Below are positions 27,542-64,000 of a DNA stretch of 64,000 bases, piece by piece (positions within the stretch are counted from its first letter, which is position 1; each line of letters opens with the position of its first letter). Source of the DNA: Lota lota (taxonomy: Eukaryota; Chordata; Actinopteri; Gadiformes; Lotidae); assembly GCA_026745465.1 (NCBI GenBank), contig JACYXH010000812.1, positions 4,144,454 to 4,208,453 of the forward strand, written 5' to 3'. The position numbers and the translations under genes were made by a program. The notes beneath the pieces were generated by a model, which ran no database searches, had not been told where the DNA came from, and saw nothing but the letters and a program-made list of their open reading frames with translations.

Positions 27542-32459
<4,918 letters not shown>

Positions 32460-40323: not shown

Positions 40324-43278
40324 TCAGTAGCTGTCCAACAGGTCTTTGTCTTCGGCTGTAAGCGTAGACGAAGAAAAGCGCTTTCCTGGAGGACTCCGAC
40401 GAGTCTCGCTGCACTCTGTTTGGCGTTGCCTTTTTCTGGCGTTAAGACACGAGGGTTTTAGTGAATCCTCAGCTGTGTCATTAACTTGCACCTCAGGAAT
40501 GCCGTGCTTTGGTGTTGGCTTGTAAAAATGGAGCTTCTCGGTTGCATCCTCGTCTTCATTCTGCCGGACCACGGGCATCGAATTCAGCACATCACTGATA
40601 AACTTTTGTCTGCCAACTGGAGAAGAACAGTGTTAAAAATGGGGGGCCAAGTGTTTATGATAACTGTGGCTTGTCATTTTACCTAAAATAAGTGTTAATG
40701 AAATGGGTACATACAGAAGCGGAGTGCTGATTTTCGTGAATCTTCAATTCTTTTCAGTTTTGGCACTTGAGAGGCAATTGTTTCCCACTGATTGACAACC
40801 TGAAAAAATAATGCTTGTTGTTGGTAAATCTTTTCAATTCAATGTATAAAACAAACAAAACTGCAGAATATATCAATATATATGTACAAACATAACATAA
40901 CTAACATAACTAAACACCTAAAAAAGTGTTTAGATAGCTAGATAAAATAAAAGCCAAATGAAAATTGGAACATACACACACACACACACTTTTTAAATGT
41001 TCTTACATGCTCTGCCCAACCTTCTGTTTTACATCTTGAATGCTCAAATATGTCCAGGGGTTTTTCAGAACAAACAAGTCCTGTCAGGTCATACATGGTC
41101 TTCTTGAGTACTGTGCCAAGCTGGAAATATAGATAACATTTAGCCTAGATGTTGTTGTTTAAGTCCATTTTTTTCTTCCCCATATAAAGGTGCAGTGTGT
41201 AGAATTTAGTGGCATCTAGCGAAAAGGACTTGGAATATGCAGAAATTGAATATAATATTCATAAGCATGGTTTAATTAGTGTATAATCCAATAAAAATAA
41301 GAATTGTTGTGTTTTTGTTAATGAGCCCTTTATATCTACATAGGGAGCAGGTCCTCTTTCATGGGGGCCGCCATGTTGCACTACCATGTGTTTACAGTAG
41401 CCCAGAACAGACAAACGGCTCTAGAGAGAACGTGTTTATTTGTTTTCGGTTTCGTTCTAGGTAGGAGTGTTATCCCCATGGCTACGACCCATTTGTGATT
41501 CTTTTTTAGTACCGTCTATGTGTAGCAGCGTTATGATGAGCGGATGAAATGCACCAAACCCTGTGGCATGATACTATAAGTGTCAATGAAGATTAACCCT
41601 CTCTCAGCTGCACCATCTAGATCAACCGTTGGCAAGACTGAGCTCCACACATCCACACACACCGTGGCGTTATACTATTCTCTGACTAGTGTCAGAGAAG
41701 CTAAATCCTCTCTTGGATGTGCCTCATATAGCCAGTAACGCGAGCATGCTGCATCCTTTCTCCAAAGTCCTATGTATTTAGAGGATTCTGACATCTGCAC
41801 ACCGTCATGTTATCAAAAGAAGTCCTATATTCACGTACTGCAGTGCAAGTTAACATTGGTTTGTAGCGCCTACTGCAATCGAGATGAATGATAAATACAT
41901 ACAACAGGTGGCGATAATTATAAGTCTATGAGTGTAGTTTATCACTCATATTCAGTGAGAAACATAAATAGGCTGTTACGTCCGTGTCCTACACATGTAT
42001 AGTGTCCATGGTGACAAAGATACCCGATTGTGATTGGTTAAACAGATTAAGTCGCAGGATAAAGTGTGTGTGTGGGGGGGGGGGGGGGGGGGGGGGGGGG
42101 CAGATTGTTTGCTATCTGCAACCTAGATGCTGCTACATTTTACACACTGGACCTTTAAAGCAAAACAATTTTAATGAATCAATTTGCGTCACCTTAAAAT
42201 TGGTCCCAGAAACATCAAGATTTTGGAGATTAGAGAGACAAGTAAGATACCTGACAACCCTTTCAGAGATTGGATTGTCTGTATGAAATAGAAAGCACCC
42301 TGTTACAGCTGTATACCAGTGGTTATTACATGTTATACTTTTATTATTATATTGTATGTGGTATGAATATATCTGTTAAAGGCCAATATAAAAGTTTTGA
42401 ACTTCAAGGCAGAAATGATAGGAGACAAATGAACAGTAGCTGACCAGAGAGATCCAGAAGTTGAAGGTTGTCAAGTCCTTTCTTGAACATCCTAATGGGC
42501 GCAGTCAATCTTTGTAGGCCAATATCTGACAGACAGTTGCCTCCAATGAAAAGTTCAACCAGTGATCTGGGGAAACAACATGATAAGTATGTAATGTAAT
42601 GGTTGAACATTTATATTTTATTGTCCATTCCAGGATTAAGGAGTTGTATTACCCAGTCAAGGAGCTGCTGGTCAGATGCTGGAAGATCTCATGACTATCT
42701 CCAAGTCGGCAGCCAAACAAATCAAGAGACTTCAGACTACGAAATGTTTTGATTTCACACATCCTCTCAGACAACAGAGGAAACCTGTAGAGACACGTAT
42801 GATGAAAGTCAGATGAAGCTAGAGGGACAGCAAAATAATAATCACGTGTATGGTATAATCTATGGTAATACCTATTCCGAAGACAAAGAGATGTTAGCAC
42901 CATGTCGCCATATGCATCATTGAATACTTGTAGGGCTTTGGGGCCCGTTTCTTGGTTGTAAAACATACATTTCTCTTCCGTGGCTGCAAAAAGTTTAACT
43001 CCTATTTGTTCAGGGAAGTCTAACAGTGAGTCCACATGGTGTATGTTTTCGGCTATGAATTGAAGAGAAATGTCGAAGAGAGACCTCGGAGAATATTGTA
43101 GATTTCCCTTCGCATTGTAGGTAAAGATGAAGTGTTCTTTTTTCAACAACAACAACGGTTTTGTTCTTCTACAGGAGGACACTGGCTTTGGCTCAGCAAG
43201 CACGATGTCATTCATCCGACGGAGCTGTCCTCCTTCTCGGATATAAAGTGCGCTATTGTCAGGATCAAGACTGCACAT
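40324..43278 (-). CDS. lrrc42: leucine-rich repeat-containing protein 42 (7 coding exons)
   Basis: Exons in transcript order are 43278-42872, 42784-42653, 42566-42445, 42278-42193, 41120-41007, 40799-40715 and 40616-40324. All are GT-AG with closing phases, giving 412 aa (human 428). The N-terminal part holds ALYIREGGQLRRMN, HFIFTYNAKGNLQYS and VDSLLDFPEQIG, and a Leu-Cys-Leu-Arg-Asn-Arg segment precedes the repeats. Leucine-rich repeats lie at about 136-245, with clear units LKSLDLFGCRLGD, LVELFIGGNCLSD, LQLLDLS and LQNLDVSGTNFK. The C-terminus is Lys/Arg-rich, then ends in an acidic EDKDLLDSY, as in LRRC42. The start was chosen because it aligns with the human N-terminus. A plausible acceptor (TTTTGTAG) lies just upstream, so a non-coding 5' exon is likely. 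Molecular function is not established for the family. Confidence 0.94.
41185..42157. mobile_element. TIR-flanked non-autonomous DNA element (MITE) in lrrc42 intron 4
   Basis: The left end is AAAGGTGCAGTGTGTAGAATTT and the right end is ATTTTACACACTGGACCTTT. They are reverse complements with few mismatches, about 970 bp apart. TA-rich bases adjoin both ends. The left-end sequence AGTGTGTAGAATTTAGTGGC is a familiar start of a fish-wide MITE. No transposase is present. The right end lies about 36 bp inside the intron from the exon 4 donor (42192), so the element almost touches the splice site. Confidence 0.85.
42074..42100. repeat. poly-G tract, 27 nt
   Basis: G homopolymer after a short GT run, inside the right part of the MITE. 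On the lrrc42 transcript it is a C run within intron 4. Confidence 0.95.
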
Positions 43279-44216
43279 GTTTGTTAGTTGTTTCTCCTAC
43301 AAAACAGAAATGAAACGTAGCAGTGTTTGCATGACAGGCGAGCAAACTAGAGAAATAATAATAGTCGTTAATAATCAAACTTGCTGCCCGGGTCTGGAAG
43401 TAAAGACATCTACCGCTAGAGAGACGTATATGTAGACATATTATTTATTGCTCACAGTTATATGTTCTTCTCTACTCAACAGAACTCGAATTTGTACTAC
43501 AAGCCTCCACCAATGTAGTTCCGGGGTACGCTTCCGTGTTTTTCCCCCATGTTTAGTTGTTTTTTAATATCAAAATAAAAGTTTGATAGTACATATTCGA
43601 ACTGAATTCGAATGTGTCTATTGTCTGAACAACATAGGGACAAAAAAGAGAGTAACTATTATTAAATGTATTCCTATCTGCTTCAAACGACCTCAATGCA
43701 TTTCGTTTCGCTGTTCAAATTACCCTTTTATTTTACTTTGAAAACGTTTGGAACAGGAACAACGCGTTTAGCAACAACGCCACATAACACATAGACCCGG
43801 GCCAACTGAACTATAGGAAGTGAAAAGACTTCTTAAAGTTAATTCTTGTGCAAATTCAGTTTGATTCTTGGAGTTGGTACATTCTATTGCTGAGGCTCGT
43901 TGACTGCACAATCCGGACTCACAATAGAGCGAAGTGTAGATTGATTACTAATGGTAGGTGACTTGTTTAGCATCTAGTACTGTATGGTATGTAGCAGTAG
44001 TTAGTTGGATCAAACTAAGCTATCAAGCAATATTTAAAAGCAATATTTTAAATATTACAGTGTTTCTTAATGTCCAACAGAAAGCAAATTGCAAAATTCA
44101 TGTGACGATTAAACACATTCTTCTTGACATTCTGTTGGTCATTCCGCAGCTAACTTGGCCAAGTATTGCATACCTTTTACACTTTCCTCTGAGGACATTT
44201 AATACAGTCCAGATCA
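43279..44216. promoter_or_regulatory. head-to-head promoter region lrrc42/yipf1
   Basis: 938 bp between divergent start codons, holding the 5' UTRs of both genes and a probable upstream intron of lrrc42. An AGCAACAACGCC stretch (about 43770) includes an RFX-like half site only. No TATA box is seen. In human the LRRC42-YIPF1 interval contains HSPB11 and DIO1; no exon of either is visible here. Confidence 0.5.
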
Positions 44217-44263
44217 ATGGCGACCACAAAAGATCCTTTTGAGTTTCAAGGTAGGCTATGTTT

Positions 44264-44360
<97 letters not shown>

Positions 44361-45714
44361 CATGTGTGTGTGTGTGTATATATATATGAGAGGTTTAAAA
44401 ACCTCTGTCATGCTCTGTGATATTTATTTATGTTGTCTATGTACAATGCAAATTGTTTTTTCTGTTATGTGGCGTTAGAATTTGAAGAGTCTGAGAGTCT
44501 GTTGGAAGAAAATAGGGATGCCACCACGATCAACATTGACGATGTGAAAGAATCTCAAAAACAGAGGAGACCAGGAATGAATGAAGATGAGGTAGACCTG
44601 CTCACCAATGATGACAAGGCAGAGGTGAAGAGTGGGGTTTGAGAGCAGTGTAAAAGTGTCATAACTTGTTTATGTCTGGCCCAAATATTGTTACACCACA
44701 AATACATAAATGTGGAACCACTCACTTTATCTTCCATATTTCTTCATTGAAGCTTCTCTCCGGACAAAAGAAAAATGCCCCATTTTGGTCATTTGAGTAC
44801 TACCAGAAATTCTTTGATGTTGACACCTACCAGGTAGTCAAAGTTATTTCTTATTACATGTCAGATTCTTCTGTAAAATGTATTTTTTAGAGAACTACTG
44901 CTACACTCATGCGCTACCATCTTGTCTTTCAGGTCAGGAGTAGAATTATTGGTTCAGTACTGCCATGGCGGGGAAAGAACTTCATTGAACTTTACGTCCG
45001 CAGAAATCCTGACCTCTATGGTAAAAACGATAATATATTGACTATATATGTGTATATATATAAAAAAAAATTTTATTAGGTGAACTTGGAATCAGACAAT
45101 TTTTCTCTCTCCTGGTTGGTTGCAACATAAACTTTTTAATGTTTCTTGATGGTTTCAAAATATTCCTAATAAAGTCGAAGGAGAGGGAGTTTGGGAGATG
45201 TGAAGATCACTCATCACTGTAGACAGAAGTAACTGTGGAACAAAGATGTGTGCATTGATGCAGGATGTTTACAGGGCCCTTTTGGATTTGTGCTACTCTC
45301 GTGTTTGCAATTGCCATCTGCGGAAACATATCCAAGTTCTTGATGAACCTGGGCAGTCCCAACTACAAATATACAGCTGAGTTTCGAAAAGGTACGTTCT
45401 GTTTTGATTTCCAACAAGGTCATTGTTATAACACTAAAGCAGTTCTCTAAAAGCAGATGTGCTTAAGAGTTATTTCGTACTCGGATGCCAAGAGTTTTCT
45501 ATAATGTGATGCATGCTGTGTCACTGTGTATGGTACTTGACTATTAGGGGCATGCTAAGCCTCCCTGTGAGGTTTCAGTGTTGGTGTTGGTTACCGTTTG
45601 TTTTCTCTTTTATGGATTGATTTCGGTATTTCACATTGGTGGACCACCACCATTGTAAATTATCAGAATATTTGTTGAAAAAATAAGTGCCAAAGCAAAT
45701 ATGATATGTATGTA

Positions 45715-45787
<73 letters not shown>

Positions 45788-47161
45788 TATGTATAGTGCA
45801 TATGTAATGTACGCACATGCAAAAGGGTGCTATCAATCTTATTTATGTCTCTTTGTTGTGATTCTCAGTGACTATTGCTGCAACAGCGATCTATAGCTAT
45901 GCCTGGCTTGTTCCTCTTGCCCTCTGGGGATTCCTGCTCTGGCGAAACAACAAAGTGATGAACTTGGTTTCCTATTCCTTCATGGAGATAGTCTGTGCCT
46001 ATGGATATTCTCTGGCCATTTACATTCCTGCAGTGGTAAGACGCCATATTGGTAATAATTAGCTTTGATGTTCTTTAATGTGAATTATTGATTTCTTCCC
46101 CCCCTTCCCTTCTAAGCTAGTAAGGCAGGATATTATTGTGTTTCTGTATTTATTTTCAACAAAACAGGATTGATTTACTTTAAAATCACTGTTTTCTGGA
46201 CCAGGTGCTGTGGATTATTCCATCAGAAGGGCTGAGGTGGTGCTCTGTGGTGGTGGCACTGTGTCTTTCTGGGTCCGTTCTGCTGCTGACCTTCTGGCCC
46301 GCTGTCAAGGACGATCACCTCAGAGTTTCCATAGCGTTTATGTCGGCCATCGTGATTCTCAATATTCTGCTGGCCGTCGGTTTTAAGGTAATTAATGTAT
46401 TAGAGCCCATTTTTCACTTATGGTAGTCGTGTCCCTGGAAGGAAGATTTGGGTCGGATTTAACTAAACAAACTTGGGGGTGATATAAGATACTCCGTATC
46501 CGGCATCCTGGCGTGGCAAACCCCATCTCCTTTGACCCAGTTTGGCCAAGGAGCCCGTGCTAGCATGCATCGATAGCTGTAGCGATTGGTTTCTACTTAG
46601 CTGACCTCTGGGACCTCATTGTACTGGCATTGCTTTAACCCCACCGCATGTGTCGGGACATCGGGGTTAATGTTTCACTGCCGTGCGAGAGCGAAAGCCA
46701 CAGAAAATGTATACTTTTGTTGGTAAGCCAGCTGGTTAAATGCTCCACCTCCTCCTGTTCAATGGAAACTTTTAGCGAGCATGAATGACAACAGGCAGTC
46801 TACACACTTCCTTGTGTGAATACAGTCAAGTCCAAGGGCTCATCGGATGACTATGATTATCGGCCGGTAATTAGTCTACATGACTCACTCACTAGTATCT
46901 GAAGAGCTGTCTTAGATTAATAGGAGGGACTGAAAGAGGCTGTTCATTATTATTTGATGTTCTTTTTTTTTTTTACTGCGAATTAAGATGCACCCTTTTT
47001 TATGCAAGAGCATACATATCGTTGGGTTTTTAAAAGTTATTTCTTTGATTATTGTTTTTTCTTTATTTGTCATCCAGGCATACTTCTTCAGTTCAGAGAG
47101 TCCACATCAACGAACCAATTACTCCGCCGTTACGCAAGTCCAATCCAAACCTCTCACATAG
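44217..47161 (+). CDS. yipf1: YIP1 family member 1 (8 coding exons)
   Basis: Exons are 44217-44250, 44479-44624, 44753-44833, 44933-45020, 45275-45391, 45869-46035, 46205-46387 and 47078-47161. All are GT-AG and in frame, giving 299 aa (human about 306). The N-terminal cytosolic part is acidic and begins MATTKDPFEFQ. The conserved FWSFEYYQKFFDVDTYQVRS and DLYGPFW mark the Yip1 domain entry. Five hydrophobic spans follow at about 119-138, 158-180, 186-211, 220-242 and 250-275. The end reads SPHQRTNYSAV... The family localises to the Golgi and takes part in Rab/vesicle traffic and glycan handling; this is family knowledge. The first coding exon is only 34 bp and is followed almost at once by a long CT repeat. 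Confidence 0.95.
44265..44353. repeat. (CT)n microsatellite at start of yipf1 intron 1
   Basis: About 44 CT units starting 14 bp after the exon 1 donor at 44251. It is a polypyrimidine mirror repeat in the sense strand, followed by a short GT/TA run. Confidence 0.97.
45726..45780. repeat. (TA)n repeat in yipf1 intron 5
   Basis: GT run merging into a perfect TA run of about 55 bp, roughly 85 bp upstream of the exon 6 acceptor. Confidence 0.95.
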
Positions 47162-47949: not shown

Positions 47950-48946
47950 TGGTTATCCATTTTCATATAAAATCTATTTATTTATTTTTTAAACACGGAG
48001 GGTAACAAAGATAAGTTACCATAATGGGCAGTTGGAGAATAGTTTAAATTGTTGCCATACTTGAACGTCCATGCATAGTTGAGTAATGCGATACAATCAA
48101 TAAAAATGTTCAAGCTTTTGGCGTCAACTAGCATTTTAACTGAACTGAACATGTTAGAACAATGTTGTTAAATATGAACTACTCTTAGCAGTATTGAGGA
48201 AGCCACTAAATCTGAACAGTTTGGCTCTTTTTTTTTTTCTAATTCATAAAAAATTTAGCAAGGGATTGTAAAGAACTAATAGCTCAGCAGGTAATTGCCC
48301 ATTTAAACACCATCAGGCCTCCAAGTTTGAAATTGGACATTTAGTATCGGGGTTTTGTCTCCAACGCATCAATCTTCGCTGTCTGGCAGGACCGTGCAAA
48401 TGCCCTGATAGCATCTGCGCCGTCTCATTGTCGTGTTGCAGGATCTTTTACCGTGGAAAAAGTTGCATACTTAAAAACTCATCCATTTTTAGGTAGTCAT
48501 CAAAACAAACATTGGCTTATTTGTTGTGCTCTAACTTTATTTCATAATCATTCCTTAGAAGGGATACGTATTTAATTTAATTAACAAAATTGAAACAGAA
48601 GAAAATAAGTGTCACTGGAAACGGTGTCAAAGGGATGGTGGCGCCCTAATTAATGGTCATTCTAACCCACGCTTTGAGTTTCACGGGAGCTTGCTGTCGA
48701 AGAGATAACCCGGCCAAAGCACTGCCAGTCCCCCCAGAGCCTGTAGGTACGAGGGTGACTAGTGTTGTTGTGGAATGGATTTATCAGTGAATAACACGCT
48801 GAGATCTTAGTTCTACTCAGAAGTACTTATGAATAGCATTCACTTTTGGATCACTTTTAATAGTTACTTTCCCCCCCCCAGCATTTAATTATGTTTTTTG
48901 TTATATATGATCTTAGTAGGCCTATTGATTTAGAAACCTGTAAGTA
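47950..48946. other. spacer between yipf1 and the coiled-coil gene
   Basis: AT-rich DNA without a recognised gene. A C-rich stretch ending in AG (48871-48881) could be the 3' splice site of a non-coding upstream exon of the coiled-coil gene. Confidence 0.45.
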
Positions 48947-49699
48947 ATGGCCTCATCCAACGGTAACGGTGACAAGGTGTCCAAATTTGAGACTTTAAAG
49001 CTTTTGGAGAAATGCAGAAAAGAGAGGGATGATGCTTTGCACCGAGAGAGCGTTCTCCGGGAGAAAGTCCGACAGTTTGAGTCCAGGTCGCGTTCAACCG
49101 AGGCGCTGAAACAGAAGATCAAGTCCCTGACGAATGACAACAAGGAGCTGAGGAAACAGACGAAGACTCTTCGGGTGGAAATCGGACTTGAGGCCAGTCC
49201 CAAGTTTAATGGGAAAACTACAAAGGACATCATCAATGACTTCCATGAAAAGGATCGCCAATGCAATTCTCTAATTGAAAAGGCCGGGAAACTCAGTTTA
49301 ACTATAGATGACTTGACATCCGAGTTGGCGAATACAGTAACTTCTAAAACCCTTTTGGAAGATCAAGTACAGTCGTTGCAACAAAACCTCAAGGACATGA
49401 CAAATAATCAGCGACGTTTGCTTAAATTGTGGGAGGACAAAAAACCACAACGAGAGCAGCTGTCACTCCCGGCAATTTCCCAGCGACCCGGGCCAGTGAT
49501 CAATAAAGGCGTTCAAACTGAGATGTCCATTAATCTATCCCAAAAGCTTCCAGTAAATGCATTTGAGACCAAGCCATTTCGCAGAGACAGTGAGAAAAGA
49601 GCAATGTTGGATAAACACAGCTTAGCTACTTTGGCGCATGGGAATCATCACGAAAAAAAGGCGTTTGTGCATGATGAAATGAAAGGGCTTCAGAATTGA
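48947..49699 (+). CDS. single-exon coiled-coil protein, unnamed
   Basis: An uninterrupted 250-codon frame with a good start context (G at -3 and +4), ordinary codon use and a downstream ATTAAA. I do not recognise the family. The product is mostly helical and charged. Two coiled-coil stretches (about 10-72 and 83-160) have regular Leu/Ile heptads and many Glu, Lys and Arg residues. A conserved-looking break reads KFNGKTTKDIINDFHEKD between them. A Pro/Ser-rich, less ordered tail begins at about 165. The tail holds NKGVQTEMS (about 187-195), close to the GVQTE-type dynein light chain LC8-binding motif. There is no signal peptide or membrane span. It lies between yipf1 and ndc1, where human has no gene. 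It may be a retrogene or a fish-retained gene with a non-coding first exon. Its function is unknown; a scaffold or centrosome/spindle role would be guesswork. Confidence 0.8.
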   Translation: MASSNGNGDKVSKFETLKLLEKCRKERDDALHRESVLREKVRQFESRSRSTEALKQKIKSLTNDNKELRKQTKTLRVEIGLEASPKFNGKTTKDIINDFHEKDRQCNSLIEKAGKLSLTIDDLTSELANTVTSKTLLEDQVQSLQQNLKDMTNNQRRLLKLWEDKKPQREQLSLPAISQRPGPVINKGVQTEMSINLSQKLPVNAFETKPFRRDSEKRAMLDKHSLATLAHGNHHEKKAFVHDEMKGLQN

Positions 49700-49776
49700 T
49701 GACACCTGTTTGAGGCATCAGTGACAAAAACAATATTCTAGACAAATTAACACAATACTATTGAAAAGGGTTATAC

Positions 49777-49782
49777 ATTAAA
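49777..49782 (+). terminator. poly(A) signal (ATTAAA), coiled-coil gene
   Basis: ATTAAA 78 bp after the stop codon, followed by a (GTTT)n run at 49812-49837 that could serve as the GU-rich downstream element. Confidence 0.6.
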
Positions 49783-50186
49783 AAGTTTGGACTTTCAATT
49801 TGTTTAAGGGTTTGTTTGTTTGTTTGTTTGTTTGTTTTGTTTCTGTGATAAGTATCCCAGTGTAAATTATTTTGTTGTTTCAACATTATTTTGTAGAAAT
49901 TGTGCTGCATGTAACGAGTAATTGTTTACACCATAAACTGTAAAAAAAAATGTACAATGTTATATTTGAAATAACTTAATTTTGTCCAGTAAATGATGCT
50001 GCATGATATGCTACTCTCCATTGAGAACAGGCAGTGACACAGACAGCTTCTACGCGGGGTCCTACAAAGGTCCTTTGAATGCATGAGGCGCGCGATATGG
50101 GGAGCGTATCTTACTGCAAAGAGACTTGGAAGTAGGAGTGAATCAAAGACACTGCCTTTACGTTTTGGATTTCATTTTCCACCGAC

Positions 50187-53100
50187 ATGTTTTCTGCAGA
50201 GCAAAGCTGTTGGTTTGTACGCAAGGCAAGTATTAACCCTAACCCGATTTCTTTATAAGCCCCCTTACTTGCTAGCCGGATAACCCATCTGTCAACTTAT
50301 GCTAGCCAAGCAGCTAAACGACTTCAGCCCAGCACAATGAATCATTGTTCTAACTTTTCCTGATCCATTCTTTAAAAGCATGATCAGTGCTAGAAAAGAC
50401 GTCCTATCAGCTAGTTCACGTAGAGTTTGTTTGTATCATCATAACGAATTATAAGGCTGTCTGTGTAGGTGGTATGCTGGAGAGCTGCGGCCAGCATCGC
50501 ATGGGCTGTCCTGCTGCTGCCTCCCGTGACAGCCCTGTTCGTAGTTCTCAGCAGAGTCAGCCTCTTTCACCCCATCCAGTGGATCACAGGTCAGCGCTCA
50601 CACAACCCCGGGCTCCAGACGACATTACTTTATCTCCGCCCCCCCCAAATTCATCTGAGTGGAGTTTTCTAAGGCTTTGTGTTTTGTGCTGTCTACAGAA
50701 TGCCTATCCATTTTAACGAGTGCCAGTACCATGTTTTCCTTCGTTCTGTTATGCGGAGTGGTGGTTGTGGTCGGCTACTTCAACCTGGAGTACTACACGG
50801 GTAAGTGAAGGGCATGGTTGTATGGTATGGTAGAAACTTGTAGACGTGGATTTTGTTTTATAAAGCTTTTGTTTTCCACTGGCGTTACTCATCTTAGCGA
50901 CAACATCTTGCAAAAGTATTCGTTCTAAAATGTATAACACTGTTGTATGGTAAACTTTTTTTTTGTTTCTGCCTTTCTCTTCTGAAGTTACCCCGTCCAT
51001 TGCTTGCTCAAAAATCGCTCTCCTGGCTCAGCTTCTCCACCCTCGGCAGTTTGTTCACTCCCTGGTCCACTGCATCATGGGGGTAATAGTGGCCTGGTGT
51101 TGTGCCATCACCATTGGTCCCAGATACCAGAATTTTGCATCCCTATGCACCCTGGCTGATGGGTAAGAAGATCAGTGTTGTTTTTATGCAAGGTGCTATA
51201 CTGGAATGGTACACAATCTTTTGGTCGGTTTCCTAGGGTTTCTTTTGTTGTTGTTTTTAAATGCAGTGATCCTCAGCTGTGCCTGAATGAATACCACCTT
51301 GTCTTGGTCCTGTTCGGAGCTTTTGTTGGCTACAGTCACAGTCTGTTTGGTGTCATGCACAACATGAACTATGTGCCCTTTCATGCAGTTCAGGTATGTG
51401 GTAATAGTGATCTTCCTTTTTGTGACGTGAATTAAGGACTTGCAGGGTAAACACAAGGGCTCAGGATTCGGTTTGTCATTAATCTTTCTCCTTTGCTTCG
51501 TTTCCCACCCTAGCAATACAAATATCTTCGTTTCAAGGGAAATCTCCCGTTGGTGGTGAAATGCAGTGCCATTCAATCCCTCTATTTCACCAGGAACTAC
51601 CTTGGGGTTTACTTCTTTTTGGGTAAGTCCCACCCTATCTGATGCAAACTCATGGACATCAACTTAACTTTAATTGGTCAGATGACCTCACCTCAACAGC
51701 CCTTTCACTGTAATGGGTTGATATTTTGAAGATGTCATGTAGGTTCTTTGCATTGGTGCACCTTTGTCCTGTTACTTGAGGGTAAACAGGGTTGCTGTTT
51801 TTAAGACATGTGCTAATTACTTTTTGATCCCTCAACATCAAAATATTTTAATTTTATTTACAGGATATATTCCTAGATCGTGGCTCTGTAACACACTGAG
51901 TCTTCAGTTAAACAGGTTTGTACCGCTGGTTTTGCCATACCTCTTAATAACACAACATACACTGTAAACAGTATCAGATAAGACCTTCACAATCTTCTCC
52001 TTCCGTTTCCCTGAAAGGGACCCGTACCTAATTTGACATAATATACATGCGCTGTGTTCAATCAATGGTCCTTCCCTCTCTCCGACTCTCTCCCCAGCTC
52101 TCTGAACCCTTTGGATAGTGTAGCGGGGCTGCTGGACCTCTCCATGCTGTACCACCTGTGGATCAGTGGCACCTTCCTTCTCCTCACCTGGTACCTCACC
52201 GTACTGCTCTTCAGGGTGTTTGTCACAGAGGTACGTTCATTGGACCATTTGGTCCTAAGGGTCCAAAACGCCTGTCACCATCCAAGATAGATAGATATGA
52301 CTCTTTGGCAGGTAAAACAATTCAGGGTTACATATTAAAAAATCTTCCACTCCTGCAGGTACAAATACTACATTTAAAAATACAATTTGGAACCGCATTC
52401 TCAACTATAGCATGGATATCCTCACTTTGTTGGTATTTATTATTTAACCCTCGAAAAACCTTCATTGGAAGTTGTAGCCACGAATGCAGCACACGCAATG
52501 AATGCACACACTACATTGCATGTATGTTAAAAGTGTGCCATGGATATCATCTGGTATATTTATTGTCAGGGTGAAACCGAAGCCGCACTTAAGTGGAAGT
52601 GGTAACCACAATCAGACGCGCAGGATGCACTACATGACCTATTCTTAATTATGCTGTGGATATCCTGTTGTTGGGTAGAAACCAAAGCCACACTAATTAG
52701 AAGTACTCCCAAAACATTGGGAGTCTCTTTGTGCGAGTGTCATAGTAACTAGCATGCATACGTTCTGTCTATGAAAATGACCAATTTAATTTACTGATAA
52801 CTTTATTTTGTTTACATTTATTTTGTCATTTGACATGTTATTGTTTATACCACTAGAGTGCAGTGTTTCTCTTAAAATGAGAACAATTATAATCCTATTC
52901 GATTATTGTAGCCTGACATCACCAGACCAATTCGCAAATGCGTATCGGTCTGGAACCTCTGTTCATTTTCGATTTCCAAGGGGTGTCATCAACGGGCACA
53001 GACCAAAATGCCTTTGGACGTAATTGGATAGACCTTCAACCAATCAGCAACGAAACATGTTGACAAATCAGCGGCAGGCATCTTGGTGGTTTTAATGTAA

Positions 53101-56100
53101 ATGCTTTAACTGTGCTCCCATAGGAGCACCGGCCCTCTGTATAGTCATCGTATTAAACCCTCCCCATATTAGATAAACTTGTGAGTGGCCTGACCCGGTC
53201 CATGTCTGCTGAAAATTTGCCTGAAACGGAGGGGGGCAAGATGCATATACAAGAGCAAATAAAACATGAGCTAACAGATTTGTCTGGTTCCTAGACTATG
53301 ATTAAAGGTCTCAGGATCTGCCATCTGCCATCTGTTTAAAAACAACTTCTAGGTGTACAACTTTCCTGTGCAAGCCACGTTTGCTGAGCAAGCCAATCGG
53401 TGTCTTCCCAAAGTCCTCCCTGGCCAGCAGCCAATGATACTGAAGGTAAGCGATGCATGGAGAAATTACAACATTCTTTTCAACATAAATTTGACTGTGA
53501 TCATTTGGATAGACCACCTGTACCATGAGGTTGTGACCTTTTAATTATTTTTTCTCCTTCTCCGCAAAATTAGTTTCTAGCTCTGCAGGACTTGGCTCTG
53601 CTCTCGCAGCATTCCCCCTCACGACGGGTCCAGGTCTTCAGCCTCAGCCAGCCAGGTCTGTCACCCCCCCCCCAAAAAAAAGAAATAAAAACCAAAAATC
53701 GCAGACGTTACAATCCTTCTCACCACGGGTTCAACACAAGTTCTGGTGATGATGGGTCCTTTCTGTCAGGTGAGCTGTCTGTCTGTCTGTCTGTCGTCAG
53801 GTGGTCACCCGCACAACTGGAATGCCATCAGCAGCGAGTGTCTGTCCCTTCTGGCCGACCTCACCCAGAGACTCGTGGCCCACCACGAGACCGTGGCAAT
53901 CAACGGCAGGGCCAAGCTGCATTCGGCTGGCAGCGACAAGAAGTCCATCTCCACTGATAGCTCGGGTACAACGCGCTATATAGTTTGGTGCTTTGTGACT
54001 ATGTGCTGTGTTTCTATAGACTACAGCGGTGTAATGAATGATTCTTCTCTTAATCGTCATGCACTGCTAATGCCATCGGAAATTGTGTTGAGAGACGACG
54101 AAACAAATAGGTGGAAGAAAAACTGTGGGCCGTCATTTCCTGATGTATGAATTTCATCAACTCCATATGTATTTCTTCGAACAGGTCTCTCGATGACACA
54201 GGACATCAGCACCCCCAGGTCCAGTGGGGTCATTCACACCCCTGTGTCGGTCTTCCTGCGCTCCTCCGTGGCCAGCGCTGCCCAGAACCCCCTGACCGCC
54301 CCCTTCACCCCTGACCTGGACAGCCCCTTCTCTTCCCCAGCCCTCAGACGCCTGGCCCCCCACCTGGAGCCCACCTCCCCTTGGAGCGACACTGTCCAGA
54401 GCCCCCATATCATGAGGCGGGGCCCCAAACTCTGGTCCGCCTCCACAGGTAAGCCCTGGGGATGGTGGTGGTGGTGGTGGGTGGTTGCTAAGCGACTAGT
54501 GCAGACTACAATGACACTGTTAGGAAACGCAACGCAATGCATTGAATTGGCCAAAGTGAAGCTGGATATGTCAAGACAGGTCCAGAAAGAAGTGAAGGTA
54601 TTAAAGATGCATTGCGGAAGGCCTAGATGCAAGTGACTACGTGGAGAGTAGGACAGAGTTTTGGTTTCAATGGAATATCCTTTTATATTTGTTGTTAGTT
54701 TTATTAAAAATTTGTTTTGATAGCCAAGCTGTTTTGGCTTTCTTTTTTTTTGGTTATGGAGCACATTCAACACAGGCGGTGAAGGCAATTTGACTTCAAT
54801 CCATTACAATTTGGCATCCCTTAAGTCTTGTTTAATTTGAAATGCCATCTGCTATGTTTTTTTTTTTTTGGGGGGGGAGTATTTGCTGTGGACCACCAAC
54901 ATGGCTGCCATATGCTAAACGACATCACCTTCAAGTCTTTTTATGTATTTTTTTCCCTCTGCAGATTCGCAGACCAGTGGCAGTCTGTCTCCATCCCCTT
55001 CCTCAGCGCTCAGCCCACACCCGGCTGTGTCCAAACCCAGCCCTCTGGCACAGTTCCTCCACAACCGAAAGGAACAGGTTCTGGCACTTAGGAACTTTCA
55101 TCATATGATCTAGTTGAGACTTTTCTTTCCATTTTTCTTTTATATTCATATCATTAAAAAACATTTGGCAAGCTGATTTCAAAAGGAAGGGAACTTTGAT
55201 CAGCGTCTTTCTTCTCCGTTTCAAACTGTCCCATTCAGGTGAAACACTTCCTGGCGAGGCGTGTGCTGATCATGTATTTGTTCAACAAGGTAAGGTTGTG
55301 TGGCACGCCGGAGCGTGCCAGGGAATGAGCGGGTGTTCACTGCACGCTAATCTCTCTCGCTCACTGACAGCCTGATTTATTTATTGCTAACCTATGACTC
55401 CTGTTTGAAAGAAAATCTGATTTGTATTGGATTTTGCTAGATCACCCACCCCACTTCCTATCAATTATTTGCGTGCTCTTCGATGGCACCGGCTGTTTTT
55501 CCATCCTTCTACATGTTACCATTAGTCCTACTGATTACTTAAAGGGCCCCAATCAAGGAGTCATGTAGCACAATGTGTCCTTCCAGTAATATGAGGAGCT
55601 CCATTTTTCAATGGGATTGGGAAGGAAATCCTTCGAATAGGTTGGTTTTCAGGCTGAAACCTTATTGATCCCAGACATGACATACATCTTTGTGTTTTTA
55701 AATATTTCCCAATCTGTTTAAACTAGATCATAGTGTCTATATTTGCTTTCCTCATTCATGATGTAGTGTAGGTTTGGTTCTATTTTAAACCATTGTCTGT
55801 CCATCTAACCACATGGTGTGCTGATGAATCATCAAACATGTAACCAAACAAGCACTGTATGGTATCTGCAGCCTGTTGCTTCTTCAACTTGTTTGTTCAA
55901 ATGCCGGTGCAAGAGAAACGACCCATTTGGCATCGTTGGCCTCCGTACTGCTTGTGTTTGGAGTCCTGGTATATATATACTGGGACACTAGATTATATAA
56001 TGGATATTTAGCAACAAACTTTGAAAGTTATGACTATGTGTAGCCTCTTACAACCAACAGTTTTAATGGCCAATTTAATGAATTACCGTTTGCCTTCAGC

Positions 56101-56965
56101 TCCCAGAAGCCTCCAGTCAAGCCCTCTTTGCAGACAGCCAGTCACACATCTGGGCTTTGGAAGGTGAGATGTTTCTGGGTTATGACAAACTTGTTTCATT
56201 TTCAAATGTCCCTGTACATGCATTAAAACGTATATCCCCTTTGGCCTCTCATCTAGGGCTGTCTCACCTTGTGGCAGCCTCCTTCTCTGAAGACAAGTTT
56301 GGCGTTGTCCAGACTACGTTACCCAGCATACTCTGTATTATGCTAGTCCTACAAGAGGTAAACTGCTATGGCTTATTCACAATGCAAACACATCTCTTTT
56401 AAGTGTCTAAATGATTTCCGTACAAGTCAAGGACTTCATAGGATTATGCCTCTGAATTGTATGAGAAGATAACATTTAATATATCTATGTATATGATGAA
56501 CCTGGAATATTACATTTCAACTAATCTTGCTGCCCCAGTCAAACAAGACTTTCTTTTTCATATCAATATTTTCTGTATTTATTTTTATGTTTGTATTTAG
56601 TGAATGTGTACCGTCTTTCCAACCCCTCCAGGCGGTGGACCGCCACTTCAAGCTGCCCCACGCCTCCAGCAAGCCCCTCCGCTCGGCCTGCAGCATGGGC
56701 GACTGCACTTACAAGACGCTGCGCTTCGCCCTCCGGGCCACGCTCAAGACCGCCATCTACAGGATAACCACCACCTTCGGGCAACACTTGAAGTAAGGCT
56801 GCTGGTTGAGCGACCCCTTTAAAAAAAATTATATATAAAGAATAATTCAAGGAAAGAAAACGTTACATTTTGAATTTCCATTTCCAATCCTGTTCTTCCA
56901 GTGCCATCAAGATGTCCGCTGAACACCGGAAAAGATTGCAGCAGTTTCTGGAGTACAAGGAGTGA
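50187..56965 (+). CDS. ndc1: nucleoporin NDC1, transmembrane (18 coding exons)
   Basis: Exons are 50187-50225, 50469-50589, 50699-50800, 50988-51162, 51267-51393, 51514-51622, 51864-51915, 52098-52230, 53353-53445, 53574-53655, 53801-53965, 54185-54448, 54965-55077, 55239-55289, 56100-56163, 56257-56357, 56632-56792 and 56902-56965. Together they give 671 aa (human 674) with every phase closing. Six membrane spans lie in the first 290 residues. Then come [24 protein letters not shown], a Ser/Pro-rich linker, RRGPKLW, and the conserved C-terminal [23 protein letters not shown]-like and [14 protein letters not shown] segments, ending [11 protein letters not shown]1 anchors the nuclear pore complex in the pore membrane with POM121, ALADIN and NUP53. 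The first coding exon ([13 protein letters not shown]) is inferred. Its donor is AAG|GCAAGT, a GC-AG intron; all other introns are GT-AG. Confidence 0.95.
52389..52710. repeat. diverged tandem repeat (about 120-bp unit) in ndc1 intron 8
   Basis: The phrase (A/G)TGGATATC(C/A)T recurs at 52412, 52540 and 52656, each time followed by an AAACC(G/A)AAGCC(G/A)CACT-like or TTGGAAGTTGTAGCCAC-like part. A partial unit precedes the first. Spacings are 128 and 116 bp. Copies are strongly diverged, so this is an old minisatellite or a repeated element. Confidence 0.6.
52908..53302. mobile_element. probable MITE in ndc1 intron 8
   Basis: The left end TAGCCTGACATCACCAGACC resembles a common fish MITE terminus. 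The right end, AATCTGT...GTCTGGTTCCTAGACTA on the plus strand, is an imperfect inverted copy (TAGTCTAGGAACCAGAC). The interior has no coding capacity. Ends are diverged and the limits are approximate. Confidence 0.5.

Positions 56966-60119: not shown

Positions 60120-64000
<3,881 letters not shown>

Follow-up and report, generated by a model that had tools for sequence, protein, structure and literature searches.

A gene with a single coding exon and no family name probably lies between yipf1 and ndc1 in the fish Lota lota, and its predicted product is an adaptor protein with coiled coils, which may be dimerised through LC8. The stretch analysed, called the window here, comprises 64,000 nucleotides of contig JACYXH010000812.1 (assembly GCA_026745465.1, positions 4,144,454 to 4,208,453, forward strand), and the frame in question occupies 48947-49699 on the + strand. 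In the reading proposed here, to which about an even chance is given as a whole, the frame would be a real gene that is expressed, probably with a short intron in its 5' untranslated region (5'UTR) and an ATTAAA end signal of its own. Two helices, one basic and the other acidic, are predicted to pair as an antiparallel hairpin of coiled coils, followed by a basic and probably disordered tail that would bear a single anchor for LC8. Since LC8 is a dimer, it would bind two copies of the protein next to each other and so create a coiled-coil scaffold with two arms, perhaps located at microtubules, the centrosome or the midbody.

Coding evidence and gene model

The original prediction described a clean 250-codon frame, and translation of 48947-49699 reproduces it exactly, with 250 residues, no internal stop, a predicted mass of 28.7 kDa and a pI of 9.6. 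The frame opens with ATG at 48947 and ends with TGA, followed immediately by a second in-frame TGA. An in-frame TAA (48941-48943) stands just 5' of the ATG, and the start context, GTAATGG, has G at both -3 and +4. Of the 16 listed frames that run from stop to stop, span at least 150 codons and lie wholly inside the window, this one is the longest. Markov simulations of 64 kb, 60 at order 3 and 60 at order 5, never produced an ATG frame of at least 250 codons; the longest reached 231 and 232 codons, respectively. Triplet periodicity amounts to 0.0373 bits. Among length-matched non-coding stretches nearby, 0 of 126 are as high, and across the whole window 29 of 2,034 stretches are, the latter count omitting stretches dominated by one dinucleotide. 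These control stretches overlap (one start per 25 bases), and masking was confined to this frame and the exons of yipf1 and ndc1, so that exons of other genes remain among the controls. The first 166 codons are matched by 0 of 198 local and 28 of 2,039 whole-window stretches, and periodicity is weaker in the last 84 (2 of 296 and 110 of 1,954). Synonymous codon choice is nearer to that of ndc1 and yipf1 than expected: 1 of 2,000 random choices comes as near at local base composition, and 41 of 2,000 do when the composition of the frame itself is used. The heptad score of residues 11-170 was reached by none of 150 residue shuffles. Because these four measures (frame length, periodicity, choice among synonyms and order of heptads) surpass most or all of their controls, the frame is very probably coding, and the prediction of a real coding frame is upheld as probable. 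All these signals come from one genome, and the conservation of frame, start and stop that the same prediction invoked is putative.

The same prediction called the gene intronless, which is correct for the coding part; an intron in the 5'UTR is possible. A candidate is found at 48747..48881 (+), with donor TAG/GTACGA and an acceptor after nine C; by consensus scores alone, the donor belongs to the best 2.7 percent of all GT sites in the window and the acceptor to the best 0.6 percent of its AG sites. Downstream, a candidate polyadenylation signal ATTAAA lies at 49777..49782 (+), with a (GTTT)n run beyond it at 49810-49842. Directly before the ATG there is also a donor-like CT/GTAAGT (48938-48945), which ranks among the best 2 percent of GT sites and, if used as a donor, would splice the frame out of that transcript. 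Further 5', at 48302-48337, two TT[TC][GA]AA sites and an ATTGG fall within about 35 bases, an observation for which no control was run; such pairs occur in cell-cycle promoters. A sigma-70 promoter scan, being a bacterial model, was not used.

Predicted hairpin and candidate LC8 anchor

Two heptad-rich segments and a disordered tail had been foreseen, and the heptad score and an AlphaFold2 model agree on the former. Helix 1, a predicted coiled coil, spans residues 13-80 (48983..49186, +) and is basic (pI 10.1), while helix 2, likewise a predicted coiled coil, spans residues 92-164 (49220..49438, +) and is acidic (pI 5.0). Between the modelled helices lies a hinge at residues 81-91 (49187..49219, +), and the heptad score drops at about residues 85-99. 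Most simply, the two helices would form an antiparallel hairpin. The tail, residues 165-250 (49439..49696, +), is basic (pI 10.0) and mostly of low confidence in the model, as disorder would give: the predicted local distance difference test score (pLDDT) is below 50 at 171-221 and 223-244, with two short low-confidence helices drawn there. The tail is predicted to be disordered. In shape the model resembles known antiparallel hairpins, namely p85 iSH2, SMC arms and the Rad50 hook; it is unlike them in sequence, with about 8-17 percent identity in the alignments and no PDB sequence match, and Z is within the range usual for long helices. Scans of the protein for KEN, D-box, SxIP and nuclear localisation signal patterns, run without a control, returned chance-level patterns only.

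Within the tail, a pattern match places a candidate LC8/DYNLL anchor, I-N-K-G-V-Q-T-E, at residues 185-192 (49499..49522, +), where K187-E192 conforms to K-x-[TVI]-Q-[TV]-[DE]. Compared with the LC8 motif [D/S]-K-X-[T/V/I]-Q-[T/V]-[D/E], as given in an excerpt of PMC3078936, the candidate departs at -4 only, where it has N rather than D or S. A polar residue is preferred at -4 and a slight positive bias is described at -5 (excerpt of PMC6607443); the N is polar, as preferred, and the Ile at -5 does not follow the positive bias. The pattern, which was picked after the sequence had been seen, appeared in 0.49 percent of shuffles of the whole protein and 0.15 percent of shuffles of the tail (20,000 each). 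It sits within the 171-221 stretch of pLDDT below 50, a placement based on the single-sequence model and not on a disorder predictor. Peptides from ZFPM1 (K-G-V-Q-T) and MAST1 (V-Q-T-E) are marked as binders in a table of PMC6607443. The candidate anchor shares its motif with LC8/DYNLL clients that contain coiled coils, such as EML3 (excerpt of PMC3078936), and like theirs it would lie close to a coil, in a segment that is probably disordered. It differs from them in being a single motif with N instead of D/S at -4, in a protein that shows no sequence kinship with them and for which binding is predicted only. Overall, the anchor in the tail is a good lead.

Family searches and rival readings

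Neither Pfam nor PDB sequences assigned the protein to a family, in agreement with the prediction that it could not be named. Pfam returned 21 families for the whole protein up to E 1, the best at E 0.0022 and all under the cut-off, which is typical coiled-coil noise. For a 93-residue segment (49163-49442), DASH_Hsk3 came up at 9.7e-05, its 23.1 bits falling short of the cut-off of 24 and its best stretch being 18 residues. PDB sequences gave no match to the whole protein up to E 10; three CodY chains matched to the middle 170 residues at E 0.71-0.76 were unusable. In a prokaryotic contig collection none of 117 pattern matches was confirmed, nor was any of 13 in viral contigs, and these absences say little because the collections hold prokaryotes and viruses. 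There is no sign of a viral origin: the best BFVD match (0.013) is above E 0.001, and no viral contig match was confirmed.

When 14 coiled-coil proteins of human were compared with it, the ranking put human CEP55 (checked at 158-217 only) foremost at the usual gap costs, followed at a distance by OPTN and NDEL1. This raises the alternative that the gene is a divergent member of the CEP55/optineurin group that has kept the first coil and hinge, lost ESCRT binding and now serves as a coiled-coil partner. The similarity is weak and joins frame residues 12-112 to human CEP55 93-180, and both proteins consist of a coil, a break and a second helix. At gap cost 11/1 the score is 101, whereas shuffles average 59-65; shuffles as high number 0/300, 0/600, 1/600, 1/500, 1/1,000 and 1/1,000 in successive runs, and at 13/2 they number 5/600, 4/600, 2/500, 8/1,000 and 1/1,000. 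The best-matching stretch continues through the low-heptad hinge, hhalign gives P 0.0025, and the reversed protein scores 67 against human CEP55. OPTN adds z values of 2.0 and 3.35 (17/500 and 2/500 shuffles as high), and NDEL1 gives 2.1 and 2.4 (15/500 and 14/500). However, at 20/3 human CEP55 sinks to z 1.0-1.2 (155/1,000 and 122/1,000 shuffles as high), hhalign assigns a probability of only 12 percent, and the alignment crosses the hinge only with gaps. The mouse protein scores 86 at 11/1, little above its reversed score of 75, with z 2.2-2.5 (18/1,000 and 34/1,000), 3.4-3.5 at 13/2 and 1.9-2.1 at 20/3. Overall, z varies from about 1 to 5 with gap cost, shuffle and the human or mouse sequence. 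CCDC89, KNSTRN, TANK, AZI2 and SYCE1 stayed at shuffle level (46 to 148 of 300 as high), as did CCDC69, MTUS1, TPM1, VIM, IKBKG and LMNA (92 to 348 of 500).

The EABR region tells further against kinship with CEP55. Its family, PF12180, which human CEP55 matches at 1.9e-18, is absent both from the 21 whole-protein matches (E to 1) and from the 10 matches of segment 49163-49442 (E to 10), in searches whose HMMER filters discard most weak matches. The CEP55 residues N181, W184, Y187, Q190 and E192 are mostly conserved in vertebrates (excerpt of PMC9012919). These five contacts to ALIX/TSG101 are not kept in the frame protein, as judged by eye with the aligned E-K extended ungapped. CEP55 has 464 residues against the frame's 250; it is a multi-exon gene whose product has a zinc-finger-like end. 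With the contacts not kept, the gene is not classed as a CEP55 member, and because 14 candidates were tried the link is weak. A relationship of this divergent kind is quite improbable, and the similarity gives the gene no name, so that its predicted novelty stands. Zebrafish Cep55l is a midbody marker (excerpt of PMC10323243), a point not used as evidence, and open-licence PMC literature on CEP55 relatives held nothing decisive in its listings.

A possible retrocopy had also been suggested; it would be a processed copy of a multi-exon gene, with a frame still open and perhaps expressed. The intron-free coding part speaks for it, as does the European sea bass, in which 312 of 1,585 single-exon genes (8.3 percent of genes) have a multi-exon paralogue (excerpt of PMC8207432). 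The flanks tell a different story, since 48300-48946 and 49700-50060 share no exact word of 9-14 bases and the nearest 3' A-run of at least 7 is an A9 at 49942, 243 bases past the stop; the plausible 5'UTR intron also counts against a processed copy. Old retrocopies lose both the target-site repeat and the A-tail. The window holds no second copy of the frame, its other matches being at E 3.0 and 5.8 only, and open-licence PMC literature on retrogene introns gave nothing decisive in its listings. Beyond the intron-free coding part there is no positive sign of a recent retrocopy; the gene may still be an old one, and a processed origin is on the whole considered unlikely. Probabilities for origin (retrocopy or CEP55 relative) and for mechanism overlap and need not sum to one.

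Several observations weigh against the LC8-dimerised hairpin. Heptads fit parallel coiled coils as well as hairpins, and the AlphaFold2 model was built on a single sequence and a single chain, with a dimer beyond its reach. In addition, only 7 of 19 matrix-predicted LC8 sequences bound (excerpt of PMC6607443), and for that reason the anchor is treated as a lead and not a result. The gene may instead encode a scaffold that forms a parallel dimer or trimer through its helices without LC8, the K-G-V-Q-T-E match being due to chance. Against this stand the rarity of the motif in shuffles, its position in the low-confidence tail and the opposite charges of the helices that flank the short hinge, and such a scaffold is possible, if on the unlikely side. 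The codon log-odds, from a model trained on 714 codons of two membrane proteins, are also unfavourable: the value of -0.05 is weak and reached by 70 of 1,049 windows of non-coding sequence, and a single antisense frame does slightly better (-0.03). Together with the lack of a homologue in the collections searched, which hold few or no vertebrate genomes, these values would suit non-coding DNA in which a frame has stayed open by chance. The frame's length and periodicity, its choice of synonyms and its heptads argue the other way, and the absence of any gene here is very improbable. Finally, a bolder conjecture combines the LC8-dimerised hairpin adaptor with descent from the CEP55/optineurin group, in a vertebrate family absent from mammals that has lost ESCRT binding and acts in cell division or at intercellular bridges in fishes; this would be very improbable on present evidence.

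Gene order and significance

The predicted place of the gene is right, because tblastn puts yipf1 (exons seen at 44511..46381, +) 5' of the frame and ndc1 (exons seen at 50469..56962, +) 3' of it, with human YIPF1 and NDC1 as queries. The Yip1 domain match at yipf1 is below the Pfam cut-off, and by reading the sequence a possible further first exon of ndc1 is seen at about 50188. On the minus strand, roughly 1.2 kb ahead of the first exon detected for yipf1, a 215-codon frame (interval 42649-44511) has no Pfam match; we take it to be lrrc42. In human, DIO1 and HSPB11 presumably lie between LRRC42 and YIPF1, and there is little room for both here. An exon at 37667-38188 matches the BSMAP/TMEM59 type (PF12280, E 1.8e-09) and is probably tmem59 of the same block, and a CUB-domain exon at 29463-29936 (PF00431, E 4.7e-30) is perhaps cdcp2, an assignment we assume from gene order. 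Rfam at the gathering threshold gave no match in the whole window, and therefore no selenocysteine element by that test; a tRNA scan was likewise empty. Simple repeats are plentiful (44 rows, some overlapping) and include a perfect (GT)85 at 60122-60291 and a perfect (GAA)33 at 1111-1209. In open-licence PMC literature, no paper treats yipf1 and ndc1 together, those pairing yipf1 with dio1 or tmem48 are human studies as judged by listings, and no paper fits a fish-specific intronless coiled-coil gene by its title and abstract.

Single-exon genes are ordinary in fish (excerpt of PMC8207432), and the gene is thus a modest addition and no surprise. Probably it is a gene without a name, placed at a fixed point of a gene order that human shares, and this shared order makes orthologues easy to look for. 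To our knowledge, human has no gene between YIPF1 and NDC1. If fishes keep the gene and mammals lack it, it would offer a case in which the loss of a coiled-coil adaptor can be tested.
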